DNA from: Micromonospora sp. NBC_01699 | GTDB taxonomy: Bacteria > Actinomycetota > Actinomycetes > Mycobacteriales > Micromonosporaceae | DNA length: 64,000 nt | Reading direction: 5' to 3' | Assembly: GCF_036250065.1 (NCBI RefSeq) | Contig: NZ_CP109199.1 | Span: 7,876,083 to 7,940,082, forward strand | Part shown: in pieces, positions 25,417 to 59,767 of the stretch | Numbering within the stretch: the first letter of the stretch is position 1 | How the letters are laid out: each line of letters begins with the position of its first letter | Program-made: the position numbers and the translations under genes | The notes under the pieces: generated by a model | The model's database searches: none | Told to the model about the DNA's origin: nothing | The model's input: the letters and a program-made list of their open reading frames with translations, nothing else

Positions 25417-25436
25417 TGCGCTCAACGTTCATCGCA
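25417..25436. promoter_or_regulatory. Operator-like palindrome, copy 1
   Basis: TGCGCTCAACGTTCATCGCA, two mismatches to the consensus TGCGYTGAACGTTCARCGCA. First of three copies at exactly 23-bp intervals in the attL-int gap. Confidence 0.75.
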
Positions 25437-25439
25437 AGG

Positions 25440-25459
25440 TGCGCGTAGCGTTCAACGCA
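25440..25459. promoter_or_regulatory. Operator-like palindrome, copy 2
   Basis: TGCGCGTAGCGTTCAACGCA, three mismatches in the left arm; the right arm is perfect. It begins 23 bp after copy 1. Confidence 0.7.
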
Positions 25460-25462
25460 ACG

Positions 25463-25482
25463 TGCGTGTAACGTTCAACGCA
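25463..25482. promoter_or_regulatory. Operator-like palindrome, copy 3, overlapping the integrase start codon
   Basis: TGCGTGTAACGTTCAACGCA, two mismatches. Its last base is the A of the integrase ATG, so a bound protein would block both transcription and initiation. The integrase has no other visible ribosome site. Confidence 0.75.
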
Positions 25483-27083
25483 TGTCCCCTGCTCATGCCC
25501 TGCTTGACCCGTCCCTCTGCGTCGCGCTCTACCTGCGCCGGTCGCACCGGAACGCCGAAGGTGACCTACGGAACGGGCGCTCGCTGAAGGAGCAGGAATC
25601 CGAGCTTCGCGACCTATGCGCCCGTCTCGGCCTCGTCGTCGTGGCGGTCTACGTCGAGCGAGAGGGCACGGGTGCATCTCGCCACTCACACAAGGCACGG
25701 CCAGAGTGGGAGAAGGCCCTCGATCACCTGCACATCGGCGCTACGTTCCGAACGGTTGGGGTCTGGGCGCTCGACCGGGCCGACCGGCGTGGGGCCGTGC
25801 AGATCGGCGCCCTGCTCGACGCACACGCTGACGGCTCGCGCCGCATCATCGGCGTTGACGGGACCGACACGGGCGACCCCCGCCGCCGGCTGGAACACAT
25901 CATCCGAGCCGAGATCGCCCGAGAGGAGGCCGACCACCTCTCGGAACGCGTTGGGCGCGCGAAACGATTCGCTCGCGCTGATGGTCGCTGGCTGGGCGGC
26001 CCACCGCCGTTCGGGACGAGCGTGGTGGATGGGCATCTCGTGCGGGACTTGGAGAACTACTCGATCGCCCGCCTGATGATCGCCGACCCGCTGCTGAACG
26101 GTGACAGCTTGTGGCAGGTCGTCAAGGGTTTAAACACTCGAAAGGTCAAGCCCGTACGGGCCGAGACCTGGGGTATCGGAACCATCGCCCAACTCATCCG
26201 GTCGCCAGGCTGGGCGGGCCTTCAGTCCATCCGTGAACGCCTGCCGTCGGGCCGCTGGCAGGCGACGGCTGAAGTGTTCCTCGGCGAGGACGGGCTACCG
26301 GTCAAGGTCGGCGAGGGTGTAATCACGCCCGCCGAGCGGGTTCGCATCCTGAAGGCTGTCGAGGCGCGCTCAGAGTCCGCCGGGTGGCGGAAGCGGGAGA
26401 GCGTTCAGGTGGCGATGCGGGGCCGCAAGGTGTCGCGCTCGCTGCTGACAGAAGTCCTTCGCTGCGACCTCTGCGACTCGCGCACGGCCCGTTCCGGCGG
26501 CAAGTACAAGTATTACCGCTGTGCCAACTACAACAACGGGAAGGGATGCCTCGGCTTTAGCTGCCCGGTGCCGGACGCCGACGCGGCGGTGTCGCTGAGC
26601 TTCCTCGCCCGAGTCGCGAGCCTGGAACCGGGAGATCCACTGCTCGAAGCTGTCGCCGACGCGTGGGTAGCCAAGGTGTCTCCCGACCTCCTCACCGAGC
26701 GCCAAGCCGCCCAGGATTCCCTAGACGTGGCCCGCGCCGATCTCGCCCGCGTCCGGCGGCTCGTCGTGGCCGGCACGTTCGACGAGCAGGACGCAGCCGA
26801 GACCATGCCGCGTCTACGCGAGGCCGTACAAGCCGCTGAGGGCCGCCTAGGCGCCCTCCCGCTGCCCGAGGCCGACATCTCCCCGCTGCTGGACATGGCG
26901 CAGTCAGTACCCGCGTGGGAGGCTCTGCCGCTGCCGGAACGCCGGTCCTTGCTGGGCCTGGCGATTCGGGAGGTGCGGGCAACTCGCGCCGACGGCCGGG
27001 GTCTTCGGTTCCACCCGCAAGACCGCCTGACGATCGTTTGGGCAGACGGGACGAAGTCGCCCGCGTATGAGCTGGTCGGCTAA
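25482..27083 (+). CDS. int: Large serine integrase (phage site-specific recombinase)
   Basis: 533 aa. The N-terminal resolvase domain carries the nucleophile Ser21 in LYLRRSHRN, the SLKEQESELRDLCARLGL motif, GTGASRHS and VWALDRADRRG. A recombinase domain follows, then a zinc ribbon near residue 328 (CDLC...YYRCANYNNGKGC) and a coiled-coil region (LDVARADLARVRRLVV...). It integrates phage DNA by attP x attB recombination; excision would need the RDF, for which the gene at 59063 is a candidate. The start codon sits in an operator-like palindrome. Confidence 0.95.
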   Translation: MSPAHALLDPSLCVALYLRRSHRNAEGDLRNGRSLKEQESELRDLCARLGLVVVAVYVEREGTGASRHSHKARPEWEKALDHLHIGATFRTVGVWALDRADRRGAVQIGALLDAHADGSRRIIGVDGTDTGDPRRRLEHIIRAEIAREEADHLSERVGRAKRFARADGRWLGGPPPFGTSVVDGHLVRDLENYSIARLMIADPLLNGDSLWQVVKGLNTRKVKPVRAETWGIGTIAQLIRSPGWAGLQSIRERLPSGRWQATAEVFLGEDGLPVKVGEGVITPAERVRILKAVEARSESAGWRKRESVQVAMRGRKVSRSLLTEVLRCDLCDSRTARSGGKYKYYRCANYNNGKGCLGFSCPVPDADAAVSLSFLARVASLEPGDPLLEAVADAWVAKVSPDLLTERQAAQDSLDVARADLARVRRLVVAGTFDEQDAAETMPRLREAVQAAEGRLGALPLPEADISPLLDMAQSVPAWEALPLPERRSLLGLAIREVRATRADGRGLRFHPQDRLTIVWADGTKSPAYELVG

Positions 27084-27175
27084 CCACTCGGTCCGACAAG
27101 GTGCCCTCGGCACCCTGGCTGGTCGTCCTGCGGGTGACGCCGTGATGACGCAGGGTATACGCGAGATTCGTGGGG

Positions 27176-27201
27176 TGACGGAACTGCCGGAAGTTCCGTC
27201 A
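27176..27201. promoter_or_regulatory. Inverted repeat TGACGGAACT / AGTTCCGTCA
   Basis: 10-bp perfect arms (27176-27185, 27192-27201) with loop GCCGGA, 92 bp after the integrase stop and leading directly into repeat A. It may be a hairpin terminator for int or a protein-binding site; TGACGGAA half-sites recur around both copies of the 72-bp repeat. Confidence 0.6.
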
Positions 27202-27267
27202 TTTCCATATAGCTGCTTTAGAGGCTTCTTCTCCTCCTCTACAACCTGAATAGGGAGATGACGAAAC
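27196..27267 (+). repeat. 72-bp prophage non-coding repeat, copy A
   Basis: Aligned by eye without gaps to 57503-57574, 62 of 72 positions agree. Invariant blocks include TATAGCTGCTTTAGAG and AACCTGAATAGGGA, with a CTTCT-CTCCTCCTCT pyrimidine stretch between. No credible ORF crosses both copies in the same frame. Confidence 0.85.
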
Positions 27268-27458
27268 TTCGCCTGTTCCGTCATGAGGAGTCGCCCAAGG
27301 CGTCACCGCCACGGTCCCGTCTGTCCGTCGCGCCAGTCGGCGCGAAGCCCACGCCCCCCGCAGATCGTCGCCCGCCTCACGTGGGCGAGCGGGCCGCCCG
27401 CGAGCGGCCTCCGCCTCGCTGCACGTGCGAGGGATCGCGGGCTGGCTCGGAAAAGTTC

Positions 27459-27486
27459 CGCGCACACTCCCGCACAAAGTCTTGAG
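27459..27486. promoter_or_regulatory. CGCGCACACTC box upstream of the regulator operon
   Basis: CGCGCACACTC followed by CCGCACA and, after a short spacer, TTGAG. The same arrangement occurs at 29141-29167 after the XRE gene. Candidate operator for the XRE/DUF5753 protein encoded at 28277. Confidence 0.5.
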
Positions 27487-27549
27487 ACGGAGGCCAACGG
27501 CGCGCAAACTCGCTCACATCCGCCCCGCTGATCATCGAAGGAGACCAGG

Positions 27550-27780
27550 ATGTCGCTACGGTTCATCGGCAAGGACCCGGACAGCCCGAACAACGGCTCG
27601 CCTACAGTGTGGCTCGATGAGGGGGACGGGAGCATCGTGCTTCAAGGCTGGAAGATCACGGACGAGGCGACGCTAGCCGCGATCGGCTCGGTCCCTGGTC
27701 ACGAGACCGTCCTCAGACTGCCTCGCCGCATGGCGCCGCTCTTGCTGGAGGTATGTGGTGACGACGTCGGAGACCGCTAG
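27550..27780 (+). CDS. Hypothetical protein in XRE/DUF6879 module
   Basis: 76 aa, GAAGGAGACC before the ATG. Short soluble protein (MSLRFIGKDPDSPNNGSPTV start; ESVPGHETVLRLPRR-like C-terminal half). Genes of this size commonly precede DUF6879 genes in actinobacteria and share the operon with the XRE regulator. No motif is recognised. It overlaps the next gene by 23 bp. Confidence 0.65.
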   Translation: MSLRFIGKDPDSPNNGSPTVWLDEGDGSIVLQGWKITDEATLAAIGSVPGHETVLRLPRRMAPLLLEVCGDDVGDR

Positions 27781-28270
27781 GCTCCTGGCCTCCGCCACTC
27801 GGTCGGCTTGCCACCTGGAGTTGCGAGACGTTTACACGCCCGATGACCCCGACTGGCTCGCTTGGCAGGCCGGTGACCGCTTCAACCCGGCTGAGCGCTG
27901 GCATGAGTGGCACGGACTGATCAAGGAGACGACGGCTCGCGGGGTGCTCATCCGGCGCGCACGGATCGTCTCTGAGCCCGTCACTGACTACGTGGTCTTC
28001 GAGTACGACGTGACGGAGGCCCACAATATCGCGGCCGGCGAATCGGTCCGCTGGCTCTCACGCTCGCAGGCATCCGACCTTCTCGTCCCACCTGCGGACT
28101 TCTGGGTGATCGATGACACGGTGGTGTTCAACCACTTCGACGGCTTCGGCAACTGGGGAGGCGAGGAGGTCCGCGACGACCCAGACCTAGCGCGCCGTCT
28201 CGTCGAGGCGTTCAACGCTGTCTGGGAACGCGCAATGCCGCACGACGCCTACCGCCCGCCGACGAGCTAG
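27758..28270 (+). CDS. DUF6879 family protein
   Basis: 170 aa. It has the family pattern: HLELRDVYTP near the N-terminus, a WHEWHGLIKETTARGV segment, RRARIVSEPVTDYVVFEYD, and DFWVIDDTVVFNHFDGFGN. DUF6879 proteins are encoded next to XRE-DUF5753 regulators and are thought to act with them. The GTG at 27758 has GGAGGT 5 bases upstream; a GTG at 27755 is too close to that site. Six bases separate it from the regulator gene. Confidence 0.85.
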   Translation: MTTSETARLLASATRSACHLELRDVYTPDDPDWLAWQAGDRFNPAERWHEWHGLIKETTARGVLIRRARIVSEPVTDYVVFEYDVTEAHNIAAGESVRWLSRSQASDLLVPPADFWVIDDTVVFNHFDGFGNWGGEEVRDDPDLARRLVEAFNAVWERAMPHDAYRPPTS

Positions 28271-28276
28271 GTCCCG

Positions 28277-29131
28277 TTGTCTGCGTCCTCGTCGTCCAGC
28301 GCCCAGCAAGCGCGCGAAGCCCTCGGGCTCAGGCTTCGCGAGATCCGGCGGGAGGCTGGCCTCACGGCATCGGCGCTCGGGGGCCGTTTAGGAAGGCATC
28401 ACGCGAAGGTGTCGCGGATTGAGCACGGGTCCGCGACACCTTCCGAGGACGACATCCGCGCGTGGTGCGAGCACTGCGGAGTGTCCGAGCTGGTCCCGGA
28501 CTTGCTCGCCACGCTCCGCGCGGTTGAGACGATGTGGGTCGAGTGGCGCCGCATGGAGCAGGCCGGTCTACGACATGCACAAGAGGCGGTCTGGCCCCTC
28601 TACCAGCGAACCCGACACTTCCGTGTCTACACGCCGAATCTGATCCCCGGCGTCCTTCAGACCAGGGCATACACGGTTGCCATCCTCGCCGCGATTCGGC
28701 GCCGCCGCTCTGTACCAGACGACATCGAAGACGCGGTAGCCGTCCGGATGGACCGGAAAAGCATCCTTCAGGACGCAAGGCACCGATTCGCGATCTTGAT
28801 CGAGGAATCGGCACTAACTGCCGGGATTGGCGGGGTCGAAGTCATGATCGGGCAACTCGGCCATCTGATCGAACTGTCGGCCACACCAACAGTTAGTCTA
28901 GGGATTCTCCCGTCCCGACCAGACCGCGATGCCGCCTGGCCAGTCGAGGGCTTCTGGATGTTCGATGATGCACAGGTCATGGTCGAGCTGGTATCCGGGC
29001 ACCTCACCGTGACTAAGCCAAGCGAGATCGCGATGTACGCCCAGGTCTTCGCCGAACTTTCCGAGTTGGCTTCCTACGGTGCTGCCGCGCGCGCCCGGAT
29101 CACGGCCGCGATCGAATCAATCGGCGCGTGA
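28277..29131 (+). CDS. XRE-family regulator with DUF5753
   Basis: 284 aa, probable TTG start at 28277. The helix-turn-helix (GLRLREIRREAGLTASALGG, then HHAKVSRIEHGSATPSEDDI) is followed by DUF5753 (NLIPGVLQTRAYTVAIL; FWMFDDAQVMVELVSGHLTV). The architecture is the same as the host regulator at 2562-3359. It may regulate its own operon through the CGCGCACACTC boxes on either side. Whether it is the phage immunity repressor is open. Confidence 0.88.
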   Translation: MSASSSSSAQQAREALGLRLREIRREAGLTASALGGRLGRHHAKVSRIEHGSATPSEDDIRAWCEHCGVSELVPDLLATLRAVETMWVEWRRMEQAGLRHAQEAVWPLYQRTRHFRVYTPNLIPGVLQTRAYTVAILAAIRRRRSVPDDIEDAVAVRMDRKSILQDARHRFAILIEESALTAGIGGVEVMIGQLGHLIELSATPTVSLGILPSRPDRDAAWPVEGFWMFDDAQVMVELVSGHLTVTKPSEIAMYAQVFAELSELASYGAAARARITAAIESIGA

Positions 29132-29140
29132 CCAAATTGG

Positions 29141-29167
29141 CGCGCACACTCGCGCACACTCGTTGAG
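29141..29167. promoter_or_regulatory. Tandem CGCGCACACT box downstream of the XRE gene
   Basis: Two exact head-to-tail copies of CGCGCACACT (29141-29160), then CGTTGAG, in the gap before the next operon (start 29267). Related to the box at 27459. Confidence 0.55.
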
Positions 29168-29266
29168 CTGGAACCTGCCAGATATCTAGCGTCACCTTCT
29201 GAGTGGGGGCCGTACGCCGCGCCCCCTCCTAGGTTCGATCTGAACCGACCCCGGAGGAGATGCGCA

Positions 29267-29572
29267 ATGTTTGTCTTCCGTCACTGGTCTGACTGGCCCT
29301 GGCATGGGCTCACCCGGCCCGACTCTGACCCGGCTCCCAAAAGCCCACACCGCCGCGTGTGGCGCGGCTTCCGCCGGTACTGCGTGTGCGGGCTGCGCTG
29401 GCCGTGCCTTGATCGAGGCGCGCCCCCGCAGGGCGCGCGGCTTTACGGCGTCGCTCCGGTACCACGCCCGGCCTGGGTTGCCGAGCCGACGGCGAACCAG
29501 AGTCCGCCACTCACGTTCGGGCAGCAGGTGGGCTACCGCGTCCCCCGGAACGGTGGCCGTCATGTCGGCTAG
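29267..29572 (+). CDS. Hypothetical protein with CxC...WPC motif
   Basis: 101 aa, GGAGGAG 7 bases before the ATG. It contains RYCVCGLRWPCLD (possible metal-binding Cys set) in the middle and is rich in Arg, Pro and Trp at the N-terminus. Similar small proteins occur in actinobacterial XRE clusters. It is the first of four tightly overlapping small genes (29267-30467). No function is assigned. Confidence 0.65.
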   Translation: MFVFRHWSDWPWHGLTRPDSDPAPKSPHRRVWRGFRRYCVCGLRWPCLDRGAPPQGARLYGVAPVPRPAWVAEPTANQSPPLTFGQQVGYRVPRNGGRHVG

Positions 29573-29921
29573 GCCGCTATTCAAGCCCGTGACCGCCGCC
29601 ATGTCGGCCAGACCACTGGTCAAGGTCGGCGACATGTTCACGATCGACCCTATGGCGTACCTGCTGGGTCACGGACCGTTTGAGTGGCCCGAGGGCCGGC
29701 AATCCTTGTATCTGCGGGTGACCCACGTGCCGGACGTCAAGCTGAGTCGTACCGATTGGGTCGCGCTGGTGGGCGTCGAGCTGGGCCCGGACGGCCAGCG
29801 AGTTGCGGGCTTTGTCGGCGTCGTACGAACAAACGCCCTTCCTGGCTACCGCCGGCCCCCATGCGGGTTTGGGTGTGAGCCGTCGTGCCCGCCGTTCATC
29901 AGGCCGGGCGGGCAGCTATGA
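29562..29921 (+). CDS. Hypothetical protein of XRE clusters
   Basis: 119 aa, ATG overlapping the previous gene. It contains PLVKVGDMFTIDPMAYLLGH, a beta-rich middle (QSLYLRVTHVPDVKLSRTDW, WVALVGVELGPDGQRV) and a C-terminal CGFGCEPSCPPF Cys cluster. The repeated AMSARPL near the N-terminus suggests an alternative start at the second copy. The function is unknown; the genomic setting is regulatory. Confidence 0.65.
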   Translation: MSARPLFKPVTAAMSARPLVKVGDMFTIDPMAYLLGHGPFEWPEGRQSLYLRVTHVPDVKLSRTDWVALVGVELGPDGQRVAGFVGVVRTNALPGYRRPPCGFGCEPSCPPFIRPGGQL

Positions 29922-30244
29922 CCGGCCTCCCACTCACGGACGCGGTCGCCCAGCACACGGCGATACCGCAGCTCTGGATCTGTCGCGTGGACGCGTACCC
30001 GTGGCCGTGCGCGGACGCCCGCCTGAACCTGCTCGCGGGCTTCCACGGTCGGCTACTTGCCCTGAACCTGTACCTCGCGCCCCTGTTCGTCGAGGCGCTG
30101 ACCGATCTTTCCGCCGTCGCTCCGGACCTGGGCGACCCGCCGGACCCCCGCGTGATCTTCGAACGCTTCATGGGATGGGTGCCTCGCCGTTCGGGTGGGG
30201 CCTTCCGTGACAGGCCGAGACCGGCATCGGAGCCCGGATCATGA
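29918..30244 (+). CDS. Small W-C/WPC protein, homologue of the host gene at 3615
   Basis: 108 aa, ATGA overlap with the previous stop. It has WICRVDAYPWPCADARLNLL, FHGRLLALNLYLAPLF and FERFMGWVPRR, matching in order the WRCPDDGEDWPC, FMRHFRDRAAPALPEL and RFVGWI elements of the host protein at 3615-3923. Both lie beside an XRE/DUF5753 regulator, which suggests a shared module carried by phage and host. Confidence 0.65.
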   Translation: MTGLPLTDAVAQHTAIPQLWICRVDAYPWPCADARLNLLAGFHGRLLALNLYLAPLFVEALTDLSAVAPDLGDPPDPRVIFERFMGWVPRRSGGAFRDRPRPASEPGS

Positions 30245-30254
30245 CCGACTTCCG

Positions 30255-30467
30255 GTGAGTGGGCTAACGAAGGTCACCGTCAACCTCAACCCACGCGCGG
30301 TCGACGCGCTCGACGGGGCCTGTACGCGGACGCGGGACACGAAGACGGACGCGATCAATCGCGCGCTGGTCGTCTACAACCTGGTCCTAGGACTGTTGGA
30401 GCGCGGCGGCGGGAGCCTCACCCTGCGGAACCCGGATGGCAGCACCGAACGGGTGCACCTACTCTGA
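30255..30467 (+). CDS. Ribbon-helix-helix-like small protein
   Basis: 70 aa from GTG 30255. KVTVNLNPRAVDALDGACTR followed by DTKTDAINRALVVYNLVL has the beta-helix-helix spacing of RHH (CopG/Arc) DNA-binding proteins, including a T/S-x-x-x-I/V-NRAL helix. It may act as a dimeric regulator of the cluster. A longer frame begins at 30195 inside the previous gene. Confidence 0.6.
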   Translation: MSGLTKVTVNLNPRAVDALDGACTRTRDTKTDAINRALVVYNLVLGLLERGGGSLTLRNPDGSTERVHLL

Positions 30468-30482
30468 TCGGACTCTGATCGG
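30461..30482 (+). repeat. Tandem 11-bp duplication ACTCTGATCGG
   Basis: Two exact copies (30461-30471, 30472-30482) spanning the stop codon of the RHH-like gene. Possible operator or slippage product. Confidence 0.6.
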
Positions 30483-30558
30483 AGGTGAGGCATTAACCGC
30501 GACCAAGGCCGCCAATCAGGTCGACCGACGCGGCCTACCGCTACCGGCCCCCTTTGCG

Positions 30559-31233: not shown

Positions 31234-31333
31234 AAACTCAAGTTACTCGATGCCAGCCAACCTGCCGCGCCCCGCTAGCCATCTCGTCGGCCCTGAGGCG
31301 GGCCTTTGTCTGTCGTGAACACCACCGGCGCCC

Positions 31334-31344
31334 CTGGCCCACTC
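31334..31344 (+). promoter_or_regulatory. CTGGCCCACTC box 1
   Basis: Exact CTGGCCCACTC 47 bp upstream of the ATG at 31391. One of six copies (one with a single change) in the prophage. Confidence 0.5.
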
Positions 31345-31390
31345 ACTCGACGTCACCAGCATCCCGGACGCCGAGGGAGACCCCCGAACC

Positions 31391-31642
31391 ATGTCGAACT
31401 TTTCCGCCGTCGCCGCGATCACCGCGCGGATGGTCGGTGCGAGCCCGGCCGAGCATCCCTTCGTCAGCGAGCCGATGTCGGTCGAGTTTCACGAGGCCGT
31501 CGCCCGCCTGCTGAACGAGATCGACGCGGCGCTGACCGCCTTTCAGGTGTCCGGCACCGAGGGCGCGATCCGTGTCGGCGCGACCCTCGGTGCCGCGAGT
31601 GACGCCCTGATGATGGCCGCCCAGATCGACGCCCTTCGGTGA
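31391..31642 (+). CDS. Hypothetical small early protein
   Basis: 83 aa, GAGGGAG about 13 bases before the ATG. Predominantly helical (FSAVAAITARMVGASPAEH; VARLLNEIDAALTAF). It opens an operon of seven overlapping small genes running to 33150 and is preceded by a CTGGCCCACTC box. No recognised domain. Confidence 0.65.
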   Translation: MSNFSAVAAITARMVGASPAEHPFVSEPMSVEFHEAVARLLNEIDAALTAFQVSGTEGAIRVGATLGAASDALMMAAQIDALR

Positions 31643-40595: not shown

Positions 40596-40615
40596 TGCGT
40601 TGAACGACTCACGCA
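40596..40615. promoter_or_regulatory. Operator-like palindrome, copy 4 (degenerate)
   Basis: TGCGTTGAACGACTCACGCA, with four central/right mismatches to the consensus but the outer arms kept. In the 163-bp gap between the MuF-like gene and scaffold gene. Confidence 0.55.
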
Positions 40616-42154: not shown

Positions 42155-42174
42155 TGCGTTGAACGTTCATCGCA
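42155..42174. promoter_or_regulatory. Operator-like palindrome, copy 5
   Basis: TGCGTTGAACGTTCATCGCA, one mismatch to the consensus. It sits in the 41-bp gap after the capsid gene, 15 bp before the next ATG. Confidence 0.8.
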
Positions 42175-43876: not shown

Positions 43877-44265
43877 AGGTTCGCTTCCCCGACCCGATGC
43901 GCGCCACCCTCGCGGTACTACGGCCGGCGCATCCCGGCGTCACGTTCGGGACGAAGCTTCCCGACGAGTTCGCGGCCGGCGACGGCCCGGCGCTGCCCTA
44001 CGGGTGCGTCCGGACCGACGCGACGAAGGTGCGCTACCCGGTCGAGGCGACATCGACCGTACGCGTGACCGTCTGGGCCCAGTCCGAGGCTGCGGGCGTC
44101 GAGCTGGCCGGCGACATCCTCGCGACGCTGCTCGGCTACGAGGGCGGCCCGGACGCCCGAGGCTTCGGCCATCTCACCGGCCCGCTCCCGGCGGCCGACC
44201 CGGACACCGGGCGGCCGATCTGCTCGACCACCGTTGCCGCACGCCTGCGGCCGTACATCACCTGA
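43873..44265 (+). CDS. Tail terminator protein
   Basis: 130 aa, GTG overlapping the previous stop. LAVLRPAHPGVTFGTKLPDE and TSTVRVTVWAQSEAAGVELA, then LAGDILATLLGYEGG: the alpha/beta pattern of terminators (lambda gpU/HK97 gp10 neighbourhood). It would cap the tail tube and join it to the head. Confidence 0.75.
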   Translation: MKVRFPDPMRATLAVLRPAHPGVTFGTKLPDEFAAGDGPALPYGCVRTDATKVRYPVEATSTVRVTVWAQSEAAGVELAGDILATLLGYEGGPDARGFGHLTGPLPAADPDTGRPICSTTVAARLRPYIT

Positions 44266-44275
44266 AGGAGTTCGC

Positions 44276-44827
44276 ATGGCAGGCGACCCGACGAAGGCGG
44301 GCCTCTGGGGCGGCGCCGATGTCTACATTGCACCCGTCGGGACTGCGTTCCCGACCGACCTCGCGACGGCTTGGGCCGTGGACTGGGAGCCGGTAGGCAT
44401 CCTGGACGGCGAAGAGGGCTTCACCTGGGCGCGGGACATGGAGGAGTCCGAGTTCTACGGCTGGGGCGGAATCCTCATCCGGAAGACCCGCTCGAAGCAC
44501 AAGCGGACCGTGACCTTCGTGGCCCTCGAAGACAACGACGTCGTGTACGAGCTGGCCAACCCAGGAAGCACCCGAACGGTCAGCGAGGGCGTGACGACCT
44601 CGCTCGTCAAGGTGCCGGAGAACCGCGAGTTCGCGATCGGTTTCGAGCTGCGCGACGGCACGAAGCGCACCCGGCGATTCGTCAAGCGGGCGACGGCCGA
44701 CGTAGACGGCGAGGTCAAGGAAAGCGAGACCGAGCTGACCGCCTACACGTTCCTCGTGACGCTCTACCCCGAGGCTGACGCAACCCTCTACACCGAGCTT
44801 GCCGGGCTGTTCACTCCCACAGCTTGA
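44276..44827 (+). CDS. Major tail (tube) protein
   Basis: 183 aa, GAAGGAG 6 bases before the ATG. Features: GGADVYIAPVGTAFPTDLAT, EPVGILDGEEGFTWARD and a beta-rich core (TVTFVALEDNDVVYELANPG) ending TFLVTLYPEADATLY, typical of siphophage tube subunits. An operator-like palindrome starts immediately after the stop codon. Confidence 0.87.
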   Translation: MAGDPTKAGLWGGADVYIAPVGTAFPTDLATAWAVDWEPVGILDGEEGFTWARDMEESEFYGWGGILIRKTRSKHKRTVTFVALEDNDVVYELANPGSTRTVSEGVTTSLVKVPENREFAIGFELRDGTKRTRRFVKRATADVDGEVKESETELTAYTFLVTLYPEADATLYTELAGLFTPTA

Positions 44828-44847
44828 TGCGCTCAACGTTGCACGCA
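44828..44847. promoter_or_regulatory. Operator-like palindrome, copy 6
   Basis: TGCGCTCAACGTTGCACGCA, three mismatches. It follows the tail-tube stop codon without any gap. Confidence 0.65.
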
Positions 44848-52117: not shown

Positions 52118-52137
52118 TGCGCTAAACGTTCGACGCA
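52118..52137. promoter_or_regulatory. Operator-like palindrome, copy 7
   Basis: TGCGCTAAACGTTCGACGCA, two mismatches, 6 bp after the tail-fibre stop. Confidence 0.72.
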
Positions 52138-53400: not shown

Positions 53401-53426
53401 CCCCGCCCACCCGGAAGGACCCCGCC

Positions 53427-53741: not shown

Positions 53742-53750
53742 CGCGCCACC

Positions 53751-53784: not shown

Positions 53785-53877
53785 TTTCGGCGTTTACACG
53801 CTCCGCTTATCAGCTGTAGCCCTCGGGCGGTCCGCCCCGCCCGCCCGAAATCCGCCCGGCGGCTGTGGCGGGAAGTG

Positions 53878-54759
53878 CTAGGGAGCCTGCCCGTCGCCCT
53901 GCTCGACACGGACGAGAGGCCGCCGCACCAGCACGCGCACAGCTTGCGCCGCCCCTTCCTGCGCCTCGTAGTTCTCGGGAGCGGGCCGGGTACCGGACGC
54001 TTGAAGCATCTCCAAGACCACGTTCGTCCCCACGGCCCCGGCCTCTCCAGGCGCCACCTCGTCTGTGGTCAGCCCTGCTTTCCGCGACGACAGTTCAGCG
54101 CGGTGCACCTGCCAGTCCATTACCATTTGCAGCCCTTGCTTCGCCACGTACAAGGCCGCTAAGGCATATCCGAATGGTTTTGTCTCACTGGCTAGCGTCG
54201 TGAGAACCACCTCTAGCGGGCTCGCCAGCTTGAGGCTGGCTACCCCAACTGGCACATCGGGTCGCGTCGCCTCGGCTCGGGCGAAGTGAAAAGTTGGCCC
54301 GGTCTGCGTAACCCAGACGGCCCCACTGTGGGTCACGGAGCTTTCAAACAAATCAACTTGCTGCACGGGCCGATGGCCGACGCCTTCCATACCGCCCGGC
54401 AGGCGACCGATTATCTGCTTCAGCAAATCACCACGCGTGGTCGAGCGCTCCGGCCCATCCTGGACATCCGGCCCGCCAAAATCAGCAACCCCACGGTACA
54501 CGGTTGCGTCACGGCCTTGACCTCTGTCGGTGGGCCCATCGCTCTCACTCGCGCCCGGAACGTCTTCGCTAGCCTGCCTGCCCGCCGGCGCCGGACCACC
54601 ACTAGCTTGCGCTCGGGTAAGCAAATACGCGTACCGGCATATGGCGTCCAGTGCAGCCAGATACTCGCTGACGACCGCGAGAGGCGGGGTGTCCCCAAGA
54701 TCGGCCACGACCAGGAGTGTCGGCGCCTGAGTCGAGGTCTGGCCGAGCGTCTGCGTCAT
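53878..54759 (-). CDS. Minus-strand accessory protein after the lysis cassette
   Basis: 293 aa from ATG 54759; an upstream extension to 54834 is possible. N-terminal helix (LAVVSEYLAALDAICRYAYL), a Gly/Asp/Ser-rich linker, a SVTHSGAVWVTQTGPTFHFA beta part, and a hydrophobic helix near the C-terminus (PFGYALAALYVAKQGLQMVM). GC is lower than in the tail genes. Its position and direction are those of a lysogenic-conversion gene. Function unknown. Confidence 0.55.
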   Translation of the reverse strand: MTQTLGQTSTQAPTLLVVADLGDTPPLAVVSEYLAALDAICRYAYLLTRAQASGGPAPAGRQASEDVPGASESDGPTDRGQGRDATVYRGVADFGGPDVQDGPERSTTRGDLLKQIIGRLPGGMEGVGHRPVQQVDLFESSVTHSGAVWVTQTGPTFHFARAEATRPDVPVGVASLKLASPLEVVLTTLASETKPFGYALAALYVAKQGLQMVMDWQVHRAELSSRKAGLTTDEVAPGEAGAVGTNVVLEMLQASGTRPAPENYEAQEGAAQAVRVLVRRPLVRVEQGDGQAP

Positions 54760-54959
54760 AGGGGCATTTAAACATGAGCGTATCGACGATCTGCGAGCAC
54801 CGACGCCAGGCAGGAACCCGAGGTGAACCCTCACACCCCCGGAAACGCCGCCTGACGCATGTGGCCCTGCGACGGTCGGCCGAGCCCAGCCGAGATCCGA
54901 CCGCCGGACGAGTAGATCAAAAGTGGACCGCCCTTATTTCACCTAGTACCGTTAGCATC

Positions 54960-55295
54960 GTGAGCGATGGACCTGTACGAATCACTCAGCCCCTACTTGT
55001 GGTTCTTGAGACACTCCTTGCTGCCGACGAGCACGAGCTACACGGCTGGGCGATCATGAAAGCCACCGGCCGAGCCGGACCCACCATCTACAAGATCTTG
55101 GAGCGCTTAGCCGAGGCCGAGTGGGTAACGTCCCGGTGGGAGGCCGAGGTCGAGCCAGGCAAGCCGCGTCGCCGCTACTACCGGCTCACCCCACACGGGG
55201 CCACGCGAGCGGAGGACATCCTGGCGCACCAGCGGTCGAAGCCCGTTGGCCGGTTCCGGCTGGCGTTCGGGGCCATCGACGGGTGCGAGGCATGA
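54960..55295 (+). CDS. PadR-family transcriptional regulator
   Basis: 111 aa from GTG 54960. ITQPLLVVLETLLAADEHEL, HGWAIMKATGRAGPTIYKIL and ERLAEAEWVTSRWE...RRRYYRLTPHG are the winged-helix elements of PadR. No SD precedes the GTG, so it may be leaderless. A longer frame to 54774 has no homology. It overlaps the next membrane gene (ATGA); such PadR/membrane pairs are typically autoregulated. Confidence 0.88.
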   Translation: MSDGPVRITQPLLVVLETLLAADEHELHGWAIMKATGRAGPTIYKILERLAEAEWVTSRWEAEVEPGKPRRRYYRLTPHGATRAEDILAHQRSKPVGRFRLAFGAIDGCEA

Positions 55296-55681
55296 CCCGG
55301 GAGATCGTTATCGGTGCAATCATCAGCCTGCTGATAACGGAGTTCACCGACATCTCACCGTGGGCCGCTCGGCGCTTGGCTCGGTGGGCTGCCTACCACT
55401 GGACGGCCGATGAGGAAATTGCAGCCGGGTACGCCGAAGAGTGGGCAGCGGTCATCGAGGCCCGACCAGGAAGGCTTCTCAAGTTGGCGACCGCCCTGTC
55501 GTTCACTTTCGGAGCGTTCGGACGGTGGGCGCCGCAACGTCTAGCGGCTTGGTCTCGATCTGTCGTGACCCTCTTTCTCCCTCATCTCCTTATGAATGTC
55601 CTCACCGGGCGTGACCGACGCAGGGTTCGTGCGATCGAGGAATTGCTCAAGACCAACCCACCCCGGAACCCAACGGAGTAG
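55292..55681 (+). CDS. Membrane protein paired with PadR
   Basis: 129 aa. N-terminal segment IVIGAIISLLITEFTDISPW, amphipathic middle (WTADEEIAAGYAEEWAAVIE), second hydrophobic stretch (KLATALSFTFGAFGRWAP) and a third (SVVTLFLPHLLMNVL). It is translationally coupled to the PadR gene and so is its likely target or partner. No transport motif is recognised. Confidence 0.65.
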   Translation: MTREIVIGAIISLLITEFTDISPWAARRLARWAAYHWTADEEIAAGYAEEWAAVIEARPGRLLKLATALSFTFGAFGRWAPQRLAAWSRSVVTLFLPHLLMNVLTGRDRRRVRAIEELLKTNPPRNPTE

Positions 55682-55720
55682 CAGACCGGGGACGAACGTT
55701 CCTGAACACCCTCGCACCCC

Positions 55721-55731
55721 TCGGCCCACTC
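55721..55731 (+). promoter_or_regulatory. TCGGCCCACTC box 2
   Basis: One change from CTGGCCCACTC, 36 bp before the GTG at 55768, followed by GTGTC-N8-GACAC. Confidence 0.45.
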
Positions 55732-55767
55732 CCTTCGTGTCCAGCAACCGACACAGGGAGCCGACCG

Positions 55768-56124
55768 GTGCCATCGATTGACAGCTACACGACCTGGAAC
55801 GACCCACTCCTTCGCCGGCTCGCAACCGCCGCCCCCGCCACCCGCGAAGACGCCATCCGCCGGGCAGAGCTGATCCTTCGCACTGCCGGCGTGAAGGCCG
55901 ACATCGTCCCGCGTCACCCGGCATGGAAGGCCGGGGATGTCGTGGTCGTCTACTACGGCCCGCAGCGCACCCCGTACACCTACGTTCGCGGCCGGGAGAC
56001 CTGGCCCGCCGATGGCGACCGCCCGGCGAAGGCCGACGGCTTCATGAACGAGCAGTACGACCGTGACCGACTGAAGCCCGTCTTGCAGGCCGGGGGCGTG
56101 CCGTTCGAGCGGACCCGGCTCTGA
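55768..56124 (+). CDS. Hypothetical protein
   Basis: 118 aa, AGGGAGCC before the GTG. LLRRLATAAPATREDAIRRA, WKAGDVVVVYYGPQRTPYTY and MNEQYDRDRLKPVLQAGGVP; a small alpha/beta protein starting the nucleotide/replication region. Its stop shares a base with the next start (TGATG). No family is recognised. Confidence 0.65.
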   Translation: MPSIDSYTTWNDPLLRRLATAAPATREDAIRRAELILRTAGVKADIVPRHPAWKAGDVVVVYYGPQRTPYTYVRGRETWPADGDRPAKADGFMNEQYDRDRLKPVLQAGGVPFERTRL

Positions 56125-56675
56125 TGGCGCGTCCGATCCTGGGACTCGTCGGCCGGAAGCGCACCGGTAAGGACACGGTCGCGGCCCGGCTCGTCGAGGC
56201 TCACGGCTTCGTCCGGTACGCCTTCGCGGATGAGTTGCGGCGCGCGGCGCTGGCGCTCAATCCGATCATTGTTCCGGGTAACACCCCGTGGGGGTCGTAC
56301 CGGCTGTCTGAGATTGTCACGGCCGACGGCTGGGAGAAGGCAAAGGAAGACCCCGAGGTCCGGCGGACGCTGCAAAATTACGGCGTGGCGATCCGCGAAT
56401 TGGACCCGGATTTCTGGGTCCGTCTGGTCTTGCGCGAGGTGAACGACGATCCGCGCCCGGTCGTGATTACCGATGTCCGCTTCCCGAACGAGGCTCGGGC
56501 GGTCGAGGACGTCGGGGGCGTGCTCGCCCGCGTCGTTCGGCCCGGCCTCGACGAGTCCGATATCCACGCCAGCGAGACCGCTCTAACCGATTACCCGACG
56601 AAGTTCGATCTTCTGAACGACAGGGATGTCCCGGCGTTGCACAGGCACGCCGACGAGCTGGTAAACCTCTTGTAA
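56124..56675 (+). CDS. Deoxynucleoside monophosphate kinase
   Basis: 183 aa. P-loop GLVGRKRTGKDTVAARLVEA near residue 8, FVRYAFADELRRAALALNPI, an LQNYGVAIRELDPDFWVRLV lid-like segment and VITDVRFPNEARAVEDVGG: the signature of phage dNMP kinases (T4 gp1-type fold). It converts dNMPs to dNDPs for phage DNA synthesis. A terminator follows. Confidence 0.87.
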   Translation: MARPILGLVGRKRTGKDTVAARLVEAHGFVRYAFADELRRAALALNPIIVPGNTPWGSYRLSEIVTADGWEKAKEDPEVRRTLQNYGVAIRELDPDFWVRLVLREVNDDPRPVVITDVRFPNEARAVEDVGGVLARVVRPGLDESDIHASETALTDYPTKFDLLNDRDVPALHRHADELVNLL

Positions 56676-56692
56676 CTAAGGTCACCCTAAGT

Positions 56693-56737
56693 AGGCCCCT
56701 GGCATGGTCCGGCATACGCTGACCTTGCCAGGGGCCT
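56693..56737 (+). terminator. Terminator after the dNMP kinase gene
   Basis: AGGCCCCTGGCA (56693-56704) and TGCCAGGGGCCT (56726-56737) are perfect 12-bp arms, followed by TTCGG. The loop also contains a GGTCA/TGACC pairing with flanking sequence. Confidence 0.8.
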
Positions 56738-56802
56738 TTCGGCGTTTGCCCAGGTCAGCGGCCCATCTGCACCTTTAAGGGCGATTTAAGGATCAAGGGA
56801 TT

Positions 56803-56822
56803 ACCGCTGAACGTTCAACGCA
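56803..56822. promoter_or_regulatory. Operator-like palindrome, copy 8
   Basis: ACCGCTGAACGTTCAACGCA, mismatched only at the first two bases. 46 bp upstream of the GTG of the next gene, in a typical autoregulatory position. Confidence 0.75.
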
Positions 56823-56868
56823 GCTAGGCTGGTCTGGGACACCCCGAGTGAAACGAGGGCGCCGAACC

Positions 56869-57498
56869 GTGGAACCCACCAGCGCCGAGGACGAGCAGGC
56901 CCGTACGAAGGACGAGCTTGGTGGAGCCCTCGTGCGCACGTTGAAACAGTTACGCCGCGTGACCGGCAAGGAAGGACGAACGCCGTTCTACCGTGAAATC
57001 GCCATACTTTCCGTTGATCTACGACCGCATTTTTTGGTGGAGGAGACCGGCCAGCCCGACTGGGCGGGCCGGACGTGGGCGTACCGCGAGTTCATCCGCA
57101 GCAAGTACAGCGACGCGGGCTACAGCAAGGATGAGGCGCGGCCGATTCAGACTGCCGTCCGTTACCACACCGCAACGGCCATTCGTGACCGAATCTCGGC
57201 CGAGCAGGTCGAGGACGCGGGACTTCAGTCCGACGACATCCTGAAGAGGGAGCGGGACCGGCGCAACGTGCGGAGCGCAATTCTCGCGACCGTGGCTGCC
57301 CCGGCAGACGATCTGAACGCCGACCCCGGTCGGTCGATGGCCGCCGCCCTGCTGATCCTTCAGCGGCTCGACCTGGCGCAGGTCGCCGCGCTGAACGGGT
57401 CCGCGAAGACGCAGGCACGAGCTGTGCTAGCGCGGCTCGCCGCAGTGGGCGATGCACTGAGCGCAGCGCTCGAAGCGCCGGATGACGAAACAGCTTGA
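56869..57498 (+). CDS. Unknown early protein downstream of an operator; possible regulator
   Basis: 209 aa from GTG 56869 (GAGGGCG upstream); a GTG at 56848 would give 216 aa. Basic helical N-terminus (GALVRTLKQLRRVTGKEGRT), FYREIAILSVDLRPHFLVEE, AYREFIRSKYSDAGYSKDEA and a helical Ala-rich C-terminal half. It is preceded by palindrome copy 8 and followed by the 72-bp repeat B. No clear helix-turn-helix, but the setting fits a repressor or replication regulator. Confidence 0.6.
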   Translation: MEPTSAEDEQARTKDELGGALVRTLKQLRRVTGKEGRTPFYREIAILSVDLRPHFLVEETGQPDWAGRTWAYREFIRSKYSDAGYSKDEARPIQTAVRYHTATAIRDRISAEQVEDAGLQSDDILKRERDRRNVRSAILATVAAPADDLNADPGRSMAAALLILQRLDLAQVAALNGSAKTQARAVLARLAAVGDALSAALEAPDDETA

Positions 57499-57502
57499 AG
57501 TG

Positions 57503-57574
57503 CCGTCATTTCTGTATAGCTGCTTTAGAGACTTCTCCTCCTCCTCTTTAACCTGAATAGGGAAGTGACGGAAG
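57503..57574 (+). repeat. 72-bp prophage non-coding repeat, copy B
   Basis: Gap-free match (62/72 by eye) to copy A at 27196-27267. It begins 5 bp after a stop codon and runs into AGTGACGGAA/TTCCGTCACT arms (57564-57573, 57583-57592). Confidence 0.85.
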
Positions 57575-57677
57575 TTCCGTCGTTCCGTCACTGTCGACCC
57601 TCTCACCGCGCCCGCTAGGCCCTCACTGGCCCGGCGGGCGTCTTACTGTCGGCACCTCCTGAACAGCACATACCCTG

Positions 57678-57688
57678 CTGGCCCACTC
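57678..57688 (+). promoter_or_regulatory. CTGGCCCACTC box 3
   Basis: Exact copy 46 bp upstream of the ATG at 57734, followed by CCTGTGT-CCATCTGG-AACACAGG, a small hairpin. Confidence 0.5.
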
Positions 57689-57733
57689 CTCCTGTGTCCA
57701 TCTGGAACACAGGCCGAGAGGGGCCGGGTAGGT

Positions 57734-58552
57734 ATGACCACACCCAAAATCAACACCATCTCGCGCGGCGGCTCGCGTTGGTACGTGAACCCCGAAAGCG
57801 GCGCGAAGGCACCGGGCGTGACGAGCGTTCTCGGGATGTTGCCGAAACCGTTCCTTCAGCACTGGGCCGCTAAGGTCGTAGCGACCTACGCCGTCGAGAA
57901 CCTAGGAGACATCGTCGGCATCGCCCTACGGGGAGACCGGCAGGGCGCAATCGACTACCTGAAGGGAGCGCCCCGGCGGGACACCGCGCAGGCGGCAGAG
58001 ACCGGCACGGCCGCTCACGACCTCTTCGAGACGATGGCAAAGGGCCTGCCTGTCGGCCGGGTGCACCCGGACTACAAGCCGTTCGTTGAACACTTTGACG
58101 CGTTCCTGGTGGAATTCCACCCCGAGATCGTGTTCACCGAAGAGACCGTGTGGTCCGAAGAGGTCGACTACGCCGGCTCGTTCGACGCCTACGCGGTGAT
58201 TGACGGTGAGCGGCTGTGGTTGGACTGGAAGACGACCCGCAGCGGCGTGCACCCCGAGGTCGCGATCCAGTTGGCCGCGTACCGGCACGCGGACTACATC
58301 ATCAGGCCAGACAAGACCCGCGTCCCGCTCCCCGGTGCTGACGGGGGCGCGGTGCTGCACGTCCGGCCCGAGGGCTGGTCGTTGGTCCCCGTTCGGTGCG
58401 ACGCCGAGGTGTTCGAGGTCTTCAAGGTGTTGCGCGAGGTCTTCACCTGGGACCGCGAGACGAAGGACGGGGTAATTGGCGAGCCGGTCAACAAGGCGCC
58501 GACCGCCGAGCCGAAGCGGCGCACCCCGGCGCCCCGTCGGCGGACCGCGTGA
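57734..58552 (+). CDS. PD-(D/E)XK exonuclease (Cas4/RecB-like, phage recombination)
   Basis: 272 aa. N-terminal PGVTSVLGMLPKPFLQHWAA, ETGTAAHDLFETMAKG, then the nuclease core: YAGSFDAYAVIDGERLWLDW-KT (D and LDWKT) and a QLAAYRHADYII helix, with a basic Arg-rich tail. It probably resects DNA ends for phage recombination/replication. It starts the replication operon; the next gene overlaps by 4 bp. Confidence 0.85.
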   Translation: MTTPKINTISRGGSRWYVNPESGAKAPGVTSVLGMLPKPFLQHWAAKVVATYAVENLGDIVGIALRGDRQGAIDYLKGAPRRDTAQAAETGTAAHDLFETMAKGLPVGRVHPDYKPFVEHFDAFLVEFHPEIVFTEETVWSEEVDYAGSFDAYAVIDGERLWLDWKTTRSGVHPEVAIQLAAYRHADYIIRPDKTRVPLPGADGGAVLHVRPEGWSLVPVRCDAEVFEVFKVLREVFTWDRETKDGVIGEPVNKAPTAEPKRRTPAPRRRTA

Positions 58553-58926
58553 TCGAGCACGCCGACCGCGACGACGTCCTGTGGCTGGCGGGCCTGCTCG
58601 AAGGGGAAGGCGCGTTCGACTTGCACCGGGCGAGGTATCCGCGCGTCCGCGTGGCGATGACCGACCGGGACGTGATCGGCCGGGCCGCGACCCTCTTCGG
58701 CGTGTCCGTTCGGCTCACGCTCAAGCCGGCGCCGCAGCAGGCGATGTGGCATGCCGAGGCGTCCGGGCCGAAGGCTGAGGCGGTTATGCGGGCGATCCTG
58801 CCGCACATGGGTGCCCGGCGGTCGGCGCGCATCGCGACGATCCTCGGCCACGCCCCGAAGACGGCGAAGACGACCGTCTCGATCTCGCGTCCGCCGGGTC
58901 TCCCGAGCGCGCCGAAAGCCGCGTGA
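58549..58926 (+). CDS. LAGLIDADG-type homing-endonuclease-like protein
   Basis: 125 aa, GTG overlapping the previous stop (GTGA). LWLAGLLEGEGAFDLHRARY carries the LAGLIDADG motif with the catalytic acidic residue, followed by VRVAMTDRDVIGRAATLFGV. Only one motif copy is present, so it would act as a dimer. It is freestanding and coupled to the exonuclease gene, suggesting selfish mobility or domestication. Confidence 0.75.
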   Translation: MIEHADRDDVLWLAGLLEGEGAFDLHRARYPRVRVAMTDRDVIGRAATLFGVSVRLTLKPAPQQAMWHAEASGPKAEAVMRAILPHMGARRSARIATILGHAPKTAKTTVSISRPPGLPSAPKAA

Positions 58927-58941
58927 ACAGGGCTTACGTCG

Positions 58942-58952
58942 CTGGCCCACTC
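58942..58952 (+). promoter_or_regulatory. CTGGCCCACTC box 4
   Basis: Exact copy 16 bp after the LAGLIDADG stop and 111 bp before the next ATG (59063). Confidence 0.45.
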
Positions 58953-59062
58953 ACTACCTGACAGCTACCGCAGCGCGGGGCGTGGGCCTTCAACGCCGCC
59001 CAGCTTCCCAACGACCCGGCTTAGCAGGGCGCCCGCGCTTCACCCCTTGAAGGAGCCCGTAC

Positions 59063-59737
59063 ATGGGTTTGCGTATCTGGGAGACCGACCCCGAGGCCGA
59101 GCCGAAGCCCCGCCAGAAGTTCACAAGCGATATCGTCGGCCGGTTTCGCAGCGGCTACCAGGTCAACGGGCGCCCGGCAGCGCTCGAACAGTGGCGGGTC
59201 ACGTCCGGCGATCCGGACGTAGCCGACACCATCCGGGCGATGTTCGGTGGCGATGCCGCGCAGACCTGGGACACGCAGGGCGAGGACAGCCTGGAAGTGT
59301 TCACCGAGGCCCCGCGTGTGAAGGTCGTTCTCGACGGCCCCTCGGCCATCCGGCAAGAGATGATCCTCTGGGGCCGCAACACGATGATTCGGCGCTGTGA
59401 CGGCGTCGAGCAGACGATGGACGAGGACAAGGGCAAGCCGTGCGAGTGCCCCGCGTCCTACCAGGACCGCAAGGACGCGGCTAAGTCCGGCCGTGGCTGC
59501 GCGCCGAGCATCACGATCTACTTCACGCTCGCGGATGACCCCGACCTTGGACGCTTCCGCTTCAACTCTGGGTCATGGTCCCTCGTCCGCGACATCGTGA
59601 CCGCCGAAGCGCAGCTCGCGGCGATCGACGGACCGGCCGAAGCGTGGCTCGGCCTCGAAGTCGTCGAGTACGAGGCGGGCGGCAAGAAGCGGCGCTTCAC
59701 GAAGCCCGTCGTCGACGTCATCGGTGCCGTCAAGTAA
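59063..59737 (+). CDS. phiC31 gp3-like recombination directionality factor
   Basis: 224 aa, GAAGGAG before the ATG. MGLRIWETDPEAEPKPRQKF, IVGRFRSGYQVNGRPAALEQ, DGVEQTMDEDKGKPCECPAS and FTLADDPDLGRFRFNSGSW match the gp3-like RDF family of serine-integrase actinophages. It would switch the integrase at 25482 from integration to excision, and related proteins may also act in replication. It lies 32 kb from int, among early genes, as in phiC31-like phages. Confidence 0.7.
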   Translation: MGLRIWETDPEAEPKPRQKFTSDIVGRFRSGYQVNGRPAALEQWRVTSGDPDVADTIRAMFGGDAAQTWDTQGEDSLEVFTEAPRVKVVLDGPSAIRQEMILWGRNTMIRRCDGVEQTMDEDKGKPCECPASYQDRKDAAKSGRGCAPSITIYFTLADDPDLGRFRFNSGSWSLVRDIVTAEAQLAAIDGPAEAWLGLEVVEYEAGGKKRRFTKPVVDVIGAVK

Positions 59738-59747
59738 CTACCCCTGA

Positions 59748-59767
59748 TGCGCTGAACGTTCAGCGCA
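59748..59767. promoter_or_regulatory. Operator-like palindrome, copy 9 (perfect)
   Basis: TGCGCTGAACGTTCAGCGCA: perfect 20-bp palindrome, 10 bp after the RDF stop codon and 7 bp before a terminator. Confidence 0.82.

Follow-up and report, generated by a model that had tools for sequence, protein, structure and literature searches.

Dispersed 20-bp palindromes as probable immunity operators of a phiC31-like prophage in Micromonospora sp. NBC_01699

The 64,000-nucleotide stretch of the Micromonospora sp. NBC_01699 genome analyzed here (contig NZ_CP109199.1, positions 7,876,083 to 7,940,082; the window) contains nine copies of a 20-bp palindrome dispersed along a prophage. The 45.6-kb prophage interrupts a host NHL-repeat/thioredoxin-like gene within its 5' end and runs beyond the window, which ends at genome position 7940082, 7 kb before the right attachment site (attR). 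Judged from the sequence, the palindromes very probably serve as operators through which a temperate prophage of the phiC31/Azeevirinae type controls an immunity regulon, and are bound by the product of the gene at 56848 (probable start 56869; the 56848 protein). The phiC31 repressor c with its dispersed conserved inverted repeats (CIR) is the known model of such a system, and the prophage appears to carry a new variant of it, with a different operator and a compact candidate repressor. A first-pass annotation of the window had proposed that a single regulator encoded by the prophage acts, as in phiC31, on operators spread over the phage. This core idea is strongly supported by the confinement of the sites, their conservation at gene junctions, and their covariation with one protein.

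All nine palindromes claimed by the first-pass annotation are present (Table 1), and the copy at 59748 is the sole perfect one among them (20/20), as it had stated. The consensus with up to three mismatches recovers eight of the nine, the exception being the more degenerate copy at 40596, and none in 100 shuffles. A symmetrized matrix built from the nine window sites scores them at 23–33 bits. Five additional strong sites lie past the window end, at genome positions 7942161, 7943031, 7945786, 7946011, and 7946497 (24–33 bits), giving a prophage total of 14 strong sites, with a single intermediate site at 7943294 (16.1 bits). The host part of the window, previously described as free of copies, reaches at most 8.1 bits at positions 1–25400. 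In the 8.28-Mb genome, the consensus with up to three mismatches is found at 15 distinct places, 13 in the prophage and two in the host, both of the latter with three mismatches. A search of the whole genome with a sequence-only model, which scored 150 of 1410 first-look candidates and lacks site 7943031 in its list, yielded 26 strand-matches at E ≤10. The top 20 are all in the prophage, and three, with 12.4, 10.7, and 10.5 bits, are in the host. A chance origin of the palindromes is rejected by their absence from the 100 shuffles and by the concentration of the whole-genome model matches in the prophage.

Twelve of the 14 strong sites are mostly intergenic, although 89% of the prophage is coding according to a rough gene caller (binomial p 1.8e-10), a simple script based on GC content at third codon positions (GC3) that was used for this prophage and for the G-labelled genomes below. 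The statement that all copies occupy non-coding gaps was slightly overstated: site 25417 is located within an open reading frame (ORF) extending out of the interrupted host gene, and site 7943031 overlaps the 3' end of the sigma-factor gene. The scan of prophage and host that had been suggested as a check shows strong copies restricted to the prophage, mostly intergenic, and at gene junctions kept in relatives.

By its proteins, the prophage groups with Arthrobacter Azeevirinae (cluster AZ), placed under Casidaviridae in the NCBI taxonomy, Microbacterium phages of cluster EH, and Curtobacterium phages such as Moss; in the closest relatives, terminase identity reaches 68%, with 82% of the query covered. 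A de novo palindrome finder, blind to the window consensus and limited to intergenic DNA, identified a dispersed 20-bp palindrome in eight of 12 related Micromonosporaceae prophage regions (G249, G278, G178, G210, G213, G280, G022, and G035), and in phages Moss, Percival, Liebe, Amyev, and Lego. In Yang and Powerpuff, a palindrome of the same outline is the second-ranked motif, scoring in Powerpuff 193 against 194 for another repeat; the Yang motif was chosen because its outline and junctions are as expected. The 16-kb contig G252 has three sites once a minimum of three is accepted. The best motif totals exceed the maximum of 20 Markov controls in all 16 genomes, the best motifs of Yang and Attoomi in this test not being of the TGCG outline. 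The outline shared, for the most part, by relatives encoding a 56848 homologue is TGCGY-NNNN-C|G-NNNN-RCGCA. The outer TGCG/CGCA is kept across relatives, and the central C|G is kept except in G035 and Percival. The inner bases are YTGAAC in the NBC_01699 prophage, TTGAAC in G249 and G210, TAAAC in G178, CTAACC in G280, TGAGNC in G278 and Moss, and AAGGC in Amyev. When whole phage genomes were searched loosely for palindromes, matches in GC-rich coding sequence overwhelmed the result. De novo searches of 15 IMG/VR stretches around homologues revealed palindromes in L082 (an Actinoplanes prophage), weakly in L091, and in none of the other 13; because L088 and L089, which are parts of Yang and Liebe, came out empty, short stretches with rough gene calls miss palindromes. 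The 20-kb IMG/VR stretch L023 yielded no such palindrome in the de novo search. Attoomi (L071, 18212-40763) carries eight copies of an unrelated dispersed motif, approximately TGTCACGGCCCCCAGTGGAT; its gp25 nonetheless matches the 56848 family (7e-15 in a search of three proteins).

The positions of the sites relative to genes are conserved, as seen when the genes of the NBC_01699 prophage were mapped onto the relatives, with site lists for 13 of the 16 genomes. The sigma-factor gene is preceded by a site in 11 of the 13 de novo lists; a rescan of each phage with the matrix of its own sites adds G278 and G178, and in Yang a site that the rescan did not recover starts 31 bp upstream of the gene, for a total of 14 of 14 phages with site lists. 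The corresponding site starts 39 bp upstream in Powerpuff and Lego. A site precedes the integrase gene (int) in seven of eight Micromonosporaceae prophages with a scored int match, the exception being G210, and the int sites of the NBC_01699 prophage, G178, and G280 are arrayed at 23-bp spacing. The gene resembling that of a recombination directionality factor (RDF) is followed by a site in all nine Micromonosporaceae prophages with site lists versus none of four other phages. A site separates genes 44234-44827 and 44928 in eight of 13 phages, and one lies upstream of the repressor candidate in nine of 13. The sites abutting int and 5' of the sigma-factor gene suggest control there at least as much as roadblocking of transcription.

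The 56848 gene is located between a homologue of annotated deoxynucleoside monophosphate (dNMP) kinases and an exonuclease gene, with site 56803 upstream. The slot before the exonuclease is that of phiC31 c and of the annotated immunity repressors of Dubu and AbbeyMikolon; one small gene separates the repressor from the exonuclease in phiC31 and AbbeyMikolon. The 56848 protein and the sigma factor are among the proteins common to all site-bearing phages. We compared distances between operator profiles with distances between 11 shared proteins in 14 phages, setting aside G252 (three sites), G001, G201, G276, Attoomi, Lego, and Powerpuff; the Yang sites were hand-picked from the second-ranked motif. 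Operator divergence follows the divergence of the 56848 protein with a rho of 0.64, versus 0.30–0.48 for the ten other proteins. With the mean of the other proteins controlled, the 56848 protein is the sole one with a signal in the 14 phages (partial correlation 0.48, p 0.0005, which is the floor of 2000 permutations). Among the nine Micromonosporaceae prophages, it has a rho of 0.62 and a partial correlation of 0.51 (p 0.018). The Powerpuff and Lego homologues have 189 of 192 residues in common, and the two phages have nearly the same sites, 10 and 11 of them listed. The 56848 protein is the likely binder because of its repressor slot, its probable relation to phiC31 c, the frequent site upstream of its gene, and the covariation signal that it alone keeps in the 14 phages.

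Two binders had been put forward by the first-pass annotation: the product of 56869, which the covariation and the slot favor, and that of 28277, which is present in only five of the 16 genomes. The latter, encoded near int, has an HTH_31 domain with DUF5753 and matches the phage DNA-binding family phrog_9908, as a binder might. The four matches outside the NBC_01699 prophage are only 26–30% identical, its DUF6879 neighbor occurs in this prophage alone, neither protein is common to the site-bearing phages, and sites of the same outline are present in genomes lacking 28277. Moreover, the matrix scan predicts no site between 25482 and 40596, hence none closely 5' of 28277. We consider binding by this XRE-DUF5753 protein extremely improbable and reject it as a candidate, as its gene is missing from most site-bearing genomes.

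Binding by another conserved phage regulator, most plausibly the sigma factor, would make the palindromes promoter or activator sites of the lytic phase. A sigma homologue is found in 15 of the 16 genomes compared, and sites lie upstream of its gene and, in the NBC_01699 prophage, at its end. The sigma factor follows operator divergence with a rho of 0.30, and its partial correlation, with the others controlled, is -0.24 in the 14 phages and 0.15 in the nine. A symmetric 20-bp site is also unlike a promoter. A separate dispersed motif differs from phage to phage (CTGGCGCATAGGG in G178, GGGGCACCCTACA in Amyev), resembles the phiC31 GGTTGCCGACTCCCTTA repeat in placement and style, and looks like a phage sigma-dependent early promoter. 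Distances between this motif and the palindromes were determined in Moss, G178, G022, Liebe, Amyev, and phiC31. In the five relatives the motif is mostly more than 290 bp from palindromes, the closest distances being 31 bp for a two-mismatch match in G022 and 294 bp for an exact match; those in phiC31 are 44 and 168 bp. Such a binder is very improbable. The motif-palindrome distances also led us to reject a direct overlap of the palindromes with the phiC31-like early promoter motif.

The spread of the palindromes over the whole prophage, late genes included, could also mean that a protein of the phage or the host uses them structurally, for replication, packaging, or segregation of the DNA. 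We regard this as highly improbable: the palindromes are almost absent from the host genome, recur 5' of regulator genes and int, and shift in their inner sequence along with one phage protein.

The 56848 protein is a likely, though not proven, remote homologue of phiC31 c. A first profile-profile comparison of the two families gives P 5.9e-4. A second comparison, of 27 and 19 sequences, gives P 8.3e-6 and a probability of 83.5% over 96 columns, a gain that weakens the case in being partly the result of choice, since Shaeky gp22, which had matched both profiles earlier, was added to the c side beforehand. Among all proteins of at least 60 residues in five phages, the homologue is the top match of the c profile, out of 60, 56, 66, 61, and 59 in Yang, Moss, Percival, Liebe, and Amyev, respectively (P 7e-4 to 0.023). 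AlphaFold models of the window protein (predicted local distance difference test score, pLDDT, of 86) and of the phiC31 c core (pLDDT 85) contain, in the same order, two helices, two bridge residues seven apart, and two helices. A Foldseek search with the window model ranks first a 94-residue ORF of Arthrobacter phage phiAAU2 (E 2.6e-4), followed by two c-family proteins with probabilities of 0.77 and 0.87.

ORF II of phiAAU2 (Y11761) is a homologue of the 56848 protein (profile E 3.9e-50 in a search of three proteins). It overlaps ald, deposited as "protein Aborting Lytic Development" and read in a different frame, and is preceded by a palindrome-like stretch of the AZ type, recognizable by eye. 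The ald locus resembles the NBC_01699 prophage in the homologue and the palindrome-like stretch, and differs in the other-frame gene ald and in the 94 residues of ORF II. As deposited, the phiAAU2 homologue (L120:386-788) stops shortly after the conserved part. The ald phenotype may belong to ORF II, if the name rests on a cloned fragment.

Several results weigh against the 56848 protein as a c-like repressor that binds the palindromes. The protein matches no helix-turn-helix family, no PHROG at E 0.001, and no Pfam family at E 0.01, and sequence and fold searches return no Protein Data Bank (PDB) match to the window protein. The adjacent exonuclease keeps a partial correlation of 0.35 (p 0.035) in the nine Micromonosporaceae prophages. 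The palindrome matrices of the relatives reach 13 bits at one to nine coding places per genome too. The de novo search found no such palindromes in G001, G201, and G276, which have short homologues. The homologue genes of Liebe, Amyev, and Powerpuff lack a convincing upstream site, and those of G213, Yang, and G278 have only weakly scoring ones (6–15 bits). In the reverse direction, the 56848 profile ranks phiC31 c third of 48 proteins (P 0.066), and a phiC31 minor tail protein obtains P 8.2e-4 with it, matching the best forward matches. The Foldseek c-family matches have E-values of 0.08 and 0.21 and TM-scores of 0.15–0.35; a reverse search with the c-core model shows no member of the 56848 family among the 50 matches shown. 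The ald reading frame itself gives no match to the family.

We hypothesize that a dimer of the 56848 (56869) product would occupy every 20-bp site, each subunit on one of the two contiguous 10-bp half-sites, with the outer TGCG contacted family-wide and the inner four bases determining the specificity of immunity. Within a lysogen, site 56803 would allow autoregulation of the repressor gene, the 25417-25463 array would keep int off, and the site at genome position 7942161 would keep the sigma-factor gene, and with it phage-type early promoters, off. The sites 3' of structural genes might act as stoperator-like blocks. Since most copies of the promoter-like motif in the tested relatives are distant from the palindromes, the shutdown of the sigma-factor gene may be the main lever. 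A broader picture, an immunity code spanning the supergroup, is possible but doubtful: phiC31 c and the compact 56848-type proteins would belong to a single superfamily of repressors whose DNA-binding fold has yet to be solved, the outer TGCG would be kept while the inner four bases diversify into immunity groups, repression would center on the phage sigma gene, and two early operons would start beside a twin hairpin acting as an RNA or DNA control element.

Like the prophage studied here, phiC31 (Lomovskayavirus) has contiguous 20-bp intergenic palindromes, of which the de novo search recovered 15 copies, one preceding the repressor gene and two the sigma gene. Its repressor gene occupies the equivalent slot before the exonuclease, and the two proteins are probably remotely homologous. 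The site sequences, however, are unrelated (ACCTACTCACGTGAGTAGGT in phiC31), and c, at 683 residues, has a long N-terminal part that is missing from the 56848-type protein of about 195–216 residues. We reject an identity of the palindromes with the repeat of phiC31, as the NBC_01699 matrix gives no match above 10 bits in phiC31. The AZ and EH phages examined (Yang, Liebe, Amyev, Lego, Powerpuff, and Percival) share the gene order, the repressor-candidate family, and the palindrome outline, and differ in the inner operator bases. The L5/Cluster A and R4 systems likewise feature numerous repressor sites, dispersed between genes or located at their ends. L5/Cluster A stoperators are described as asymmetric and 13-14 bp long (PMC13313380), and R4 is a known repressor-stoperator model (PMC10276819). 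The R4 repressor, annotated "similar to L5 gp71", belongs to another family than the 56848 protein. The prophage does not fit an L5-type stoperator system: the sites are 20-bp near-palindromes, and the 56848 protein matches no PHROG or Pfam family at the thresholds given above.

Cluster AZ phage Powerpuff forms immune lysogens and is homoimmune with Lego, and the repressor of AZ/EH phages is reported as not yet identified (PMC8758107). AZ1 phages are described in a second paper as having no identifiable immunity repressor (PMC11600132). In a third, AZ1 phage Cyan is predicted to be temperate from its integrase, and the "no immunity repressor" remark there concerns a cluster AT phage (PMC11783174). 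We found no published report of these sites for AZ/EH phages or related systems in a search that lay mostly outside subscription literature and did not include ald. The analysis names one candidate gene and its putative operators for phages reported without an identifiable repressor, predicts shared immunity among phages with the same inner bases, as in Powerpuff and Lego, and ties AZ/EH-type phages to the classic phiC31 immunity system. The window protein has no close PDB match, so confirmation of binding would add a new mode of DNA recognition to structural biology.

Matches to the 56848 protein occur in 100 phage records, of which 75 are from Arthrobacter, 14 from Microbacterium, ten from Curtobacterium, and one from Streptomyces. 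The host family of the prophage-bearing genomes appears to be Micromonosporaceae, and 15 of 354 genomes of the host family encode a homologue (E ≤0.001), two of them weak. A core-specific pattern with up to two mismatches matches 28 of the 354 genomes, 24 of them once. At least two places are found in only four, all of which carry a 56848 homologue: NBC_01699 (nine), G249 (ten), G178 (two, which are identical copies at opposite contig ends), and G252 (two). In G178 (L044-L046), both the operator doublet of the left end and the hairpin beside int are repeated at the other end of the region, with three hairpins in total, which suggests a duplicated end or a second integration. The exact core pattern is present in six IMG/VR contigs. 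One match (L010) is on the contig that encodes the homologue of stretch L023, L011 has three sites in 3.3 kb, and L014 has one strong and one 17.6-bit site; the remaining three contigs have one site each, which may be due to chance.

Table 1. Features of the prophage and related motifs (window positions unless stated otherwise).
Feature	Position	Strand	Basis or remark
attL core, 25 bp	25321..25345	+	exact repeat at genome 7947004-7947028 (attR); prophage left end
Predicted operator site 1, tandem array upstream of int	25417..25436	.	consensus and matrix
Predicted operator site 2, offset 23 bp from site 1	25440..25459	.	consensus and matrix
Predicted operator site 3, final base is first base of int ORF	25463..25482	.	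consensus and matrix
Serine integrase gene (int)	25482..27083	+	phrog_95 1.4e-49; Resolvase 8.2e-15
Predicted operator site 4, between protease-position and scaffold-position genes	40596..40615	.	matrix
Predicted operator site 5, directly 3' of major capsid gene	42155..42174	.	consensus and matrix
Predicted operator site 6, directly 3' of gene 44234-44827	44828..44847	.	consensus and matrix
Predicted operator site 7, directly 3' of tail-fibre gene	52118..52137	.	consensus and matrix
Predicted operator site 8, upstream of candidate repressor gene; autoregulation proposed	56803..56822	.	consensus and matrix
Candidate immunity repressor gene, 216 aa	56848..57498	+	homologues suggest true start 56869
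Exonuclease gene, next after repressor slot as in phiC31	57734..58552	+	phrog_298 4.7e-55; synteny
Gene at phiC31 gp3/RDF position	59063..59737	+	phrog_9220
Predicted operator site 9, perfect palindrome after RDF-like gene	59748..59767	.	consensus and matrix
Phage sigma-factor gene	genome 7942225-7943046		predicted site 7942161 upstream, 7943031 at gene end
Host gene at prophage right end, NHL/Thioredoxin_8			domain matches
Second dispersed motif	Moss 20099; G178 34764; Amyev 23324; Liebe 22026; phiC31 22668; further copies		
CTGTTTACAC-type repeats	Powerpuff L121 35650-41696; Lego L119 34262-40493; Liebe L021 19637-37113		

The product of the gene at the RDF position is 48% identical to a Moss protein whose gene is annotated as RDF. 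A second protein with sigma region 2 is encoded in the early region (L008:3537-4151, window-equivalent 68454-69071; PF04542, 3.3e-9); of the 15 other genomes compared, only G035 has a match to it. Next to int, a DUF6879 and XRE-DUF5753 gene pair (27755-29131), missing from most relatives, can be regarded as a lysogeny accessory. Beside attR, the phage appears by eye to bear its own first codons of the host NHL/thioredoxin-like gene (about 7946943-7947028, compared with window 25248-25345), so integration would swap the 5' end and start of that gene.

A repeat of approximately CTGTTTACAC begins 6-8 bp past the end of four palindromes each in Liebe, Powerpuff, and Lego, and G249 bears a similar CGTTTACACG motif. 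These CTGTTTACAC stretches are possibly promoter elements paired with operators.

A comparatively AT-rich hairpin of about 105 bp is present once after int (27175-27284) and once after the repressor candidate (57482-57591). Two copies each are also found in Yang, Moss, Percival, Liebe, Amyev, and phiC31, those of phiC31 at an E-value of only about 0.02, and eight of the related genomes have it at two loci. Of its 18 consensus pairs, 12 have at least one compensatory double change. Rfam contains no match overlapping the hairpin at E ≤1; the three Rfam matches obtained are all below the gathering score. Possible identities of the hairpin are a nut/put-like RNA, a terminator, and a DNA element. 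Eight further loci of the NBC_01699 chromosome match the hairpin model more weakly (7350771, 2733641, 4673207, 2006817, 4436763, and three others); hairpins of this shape are therefore found outside phages as well. The five host loci that were read (L114-L118) are alike mutually and unlike the prophage copies by BLASTN, and at least three of them are near genes that by eye resemble XRE-type regulators. The weaker loci look like a host family similar to miniature inverted-repeat transposable elements (MITEs).

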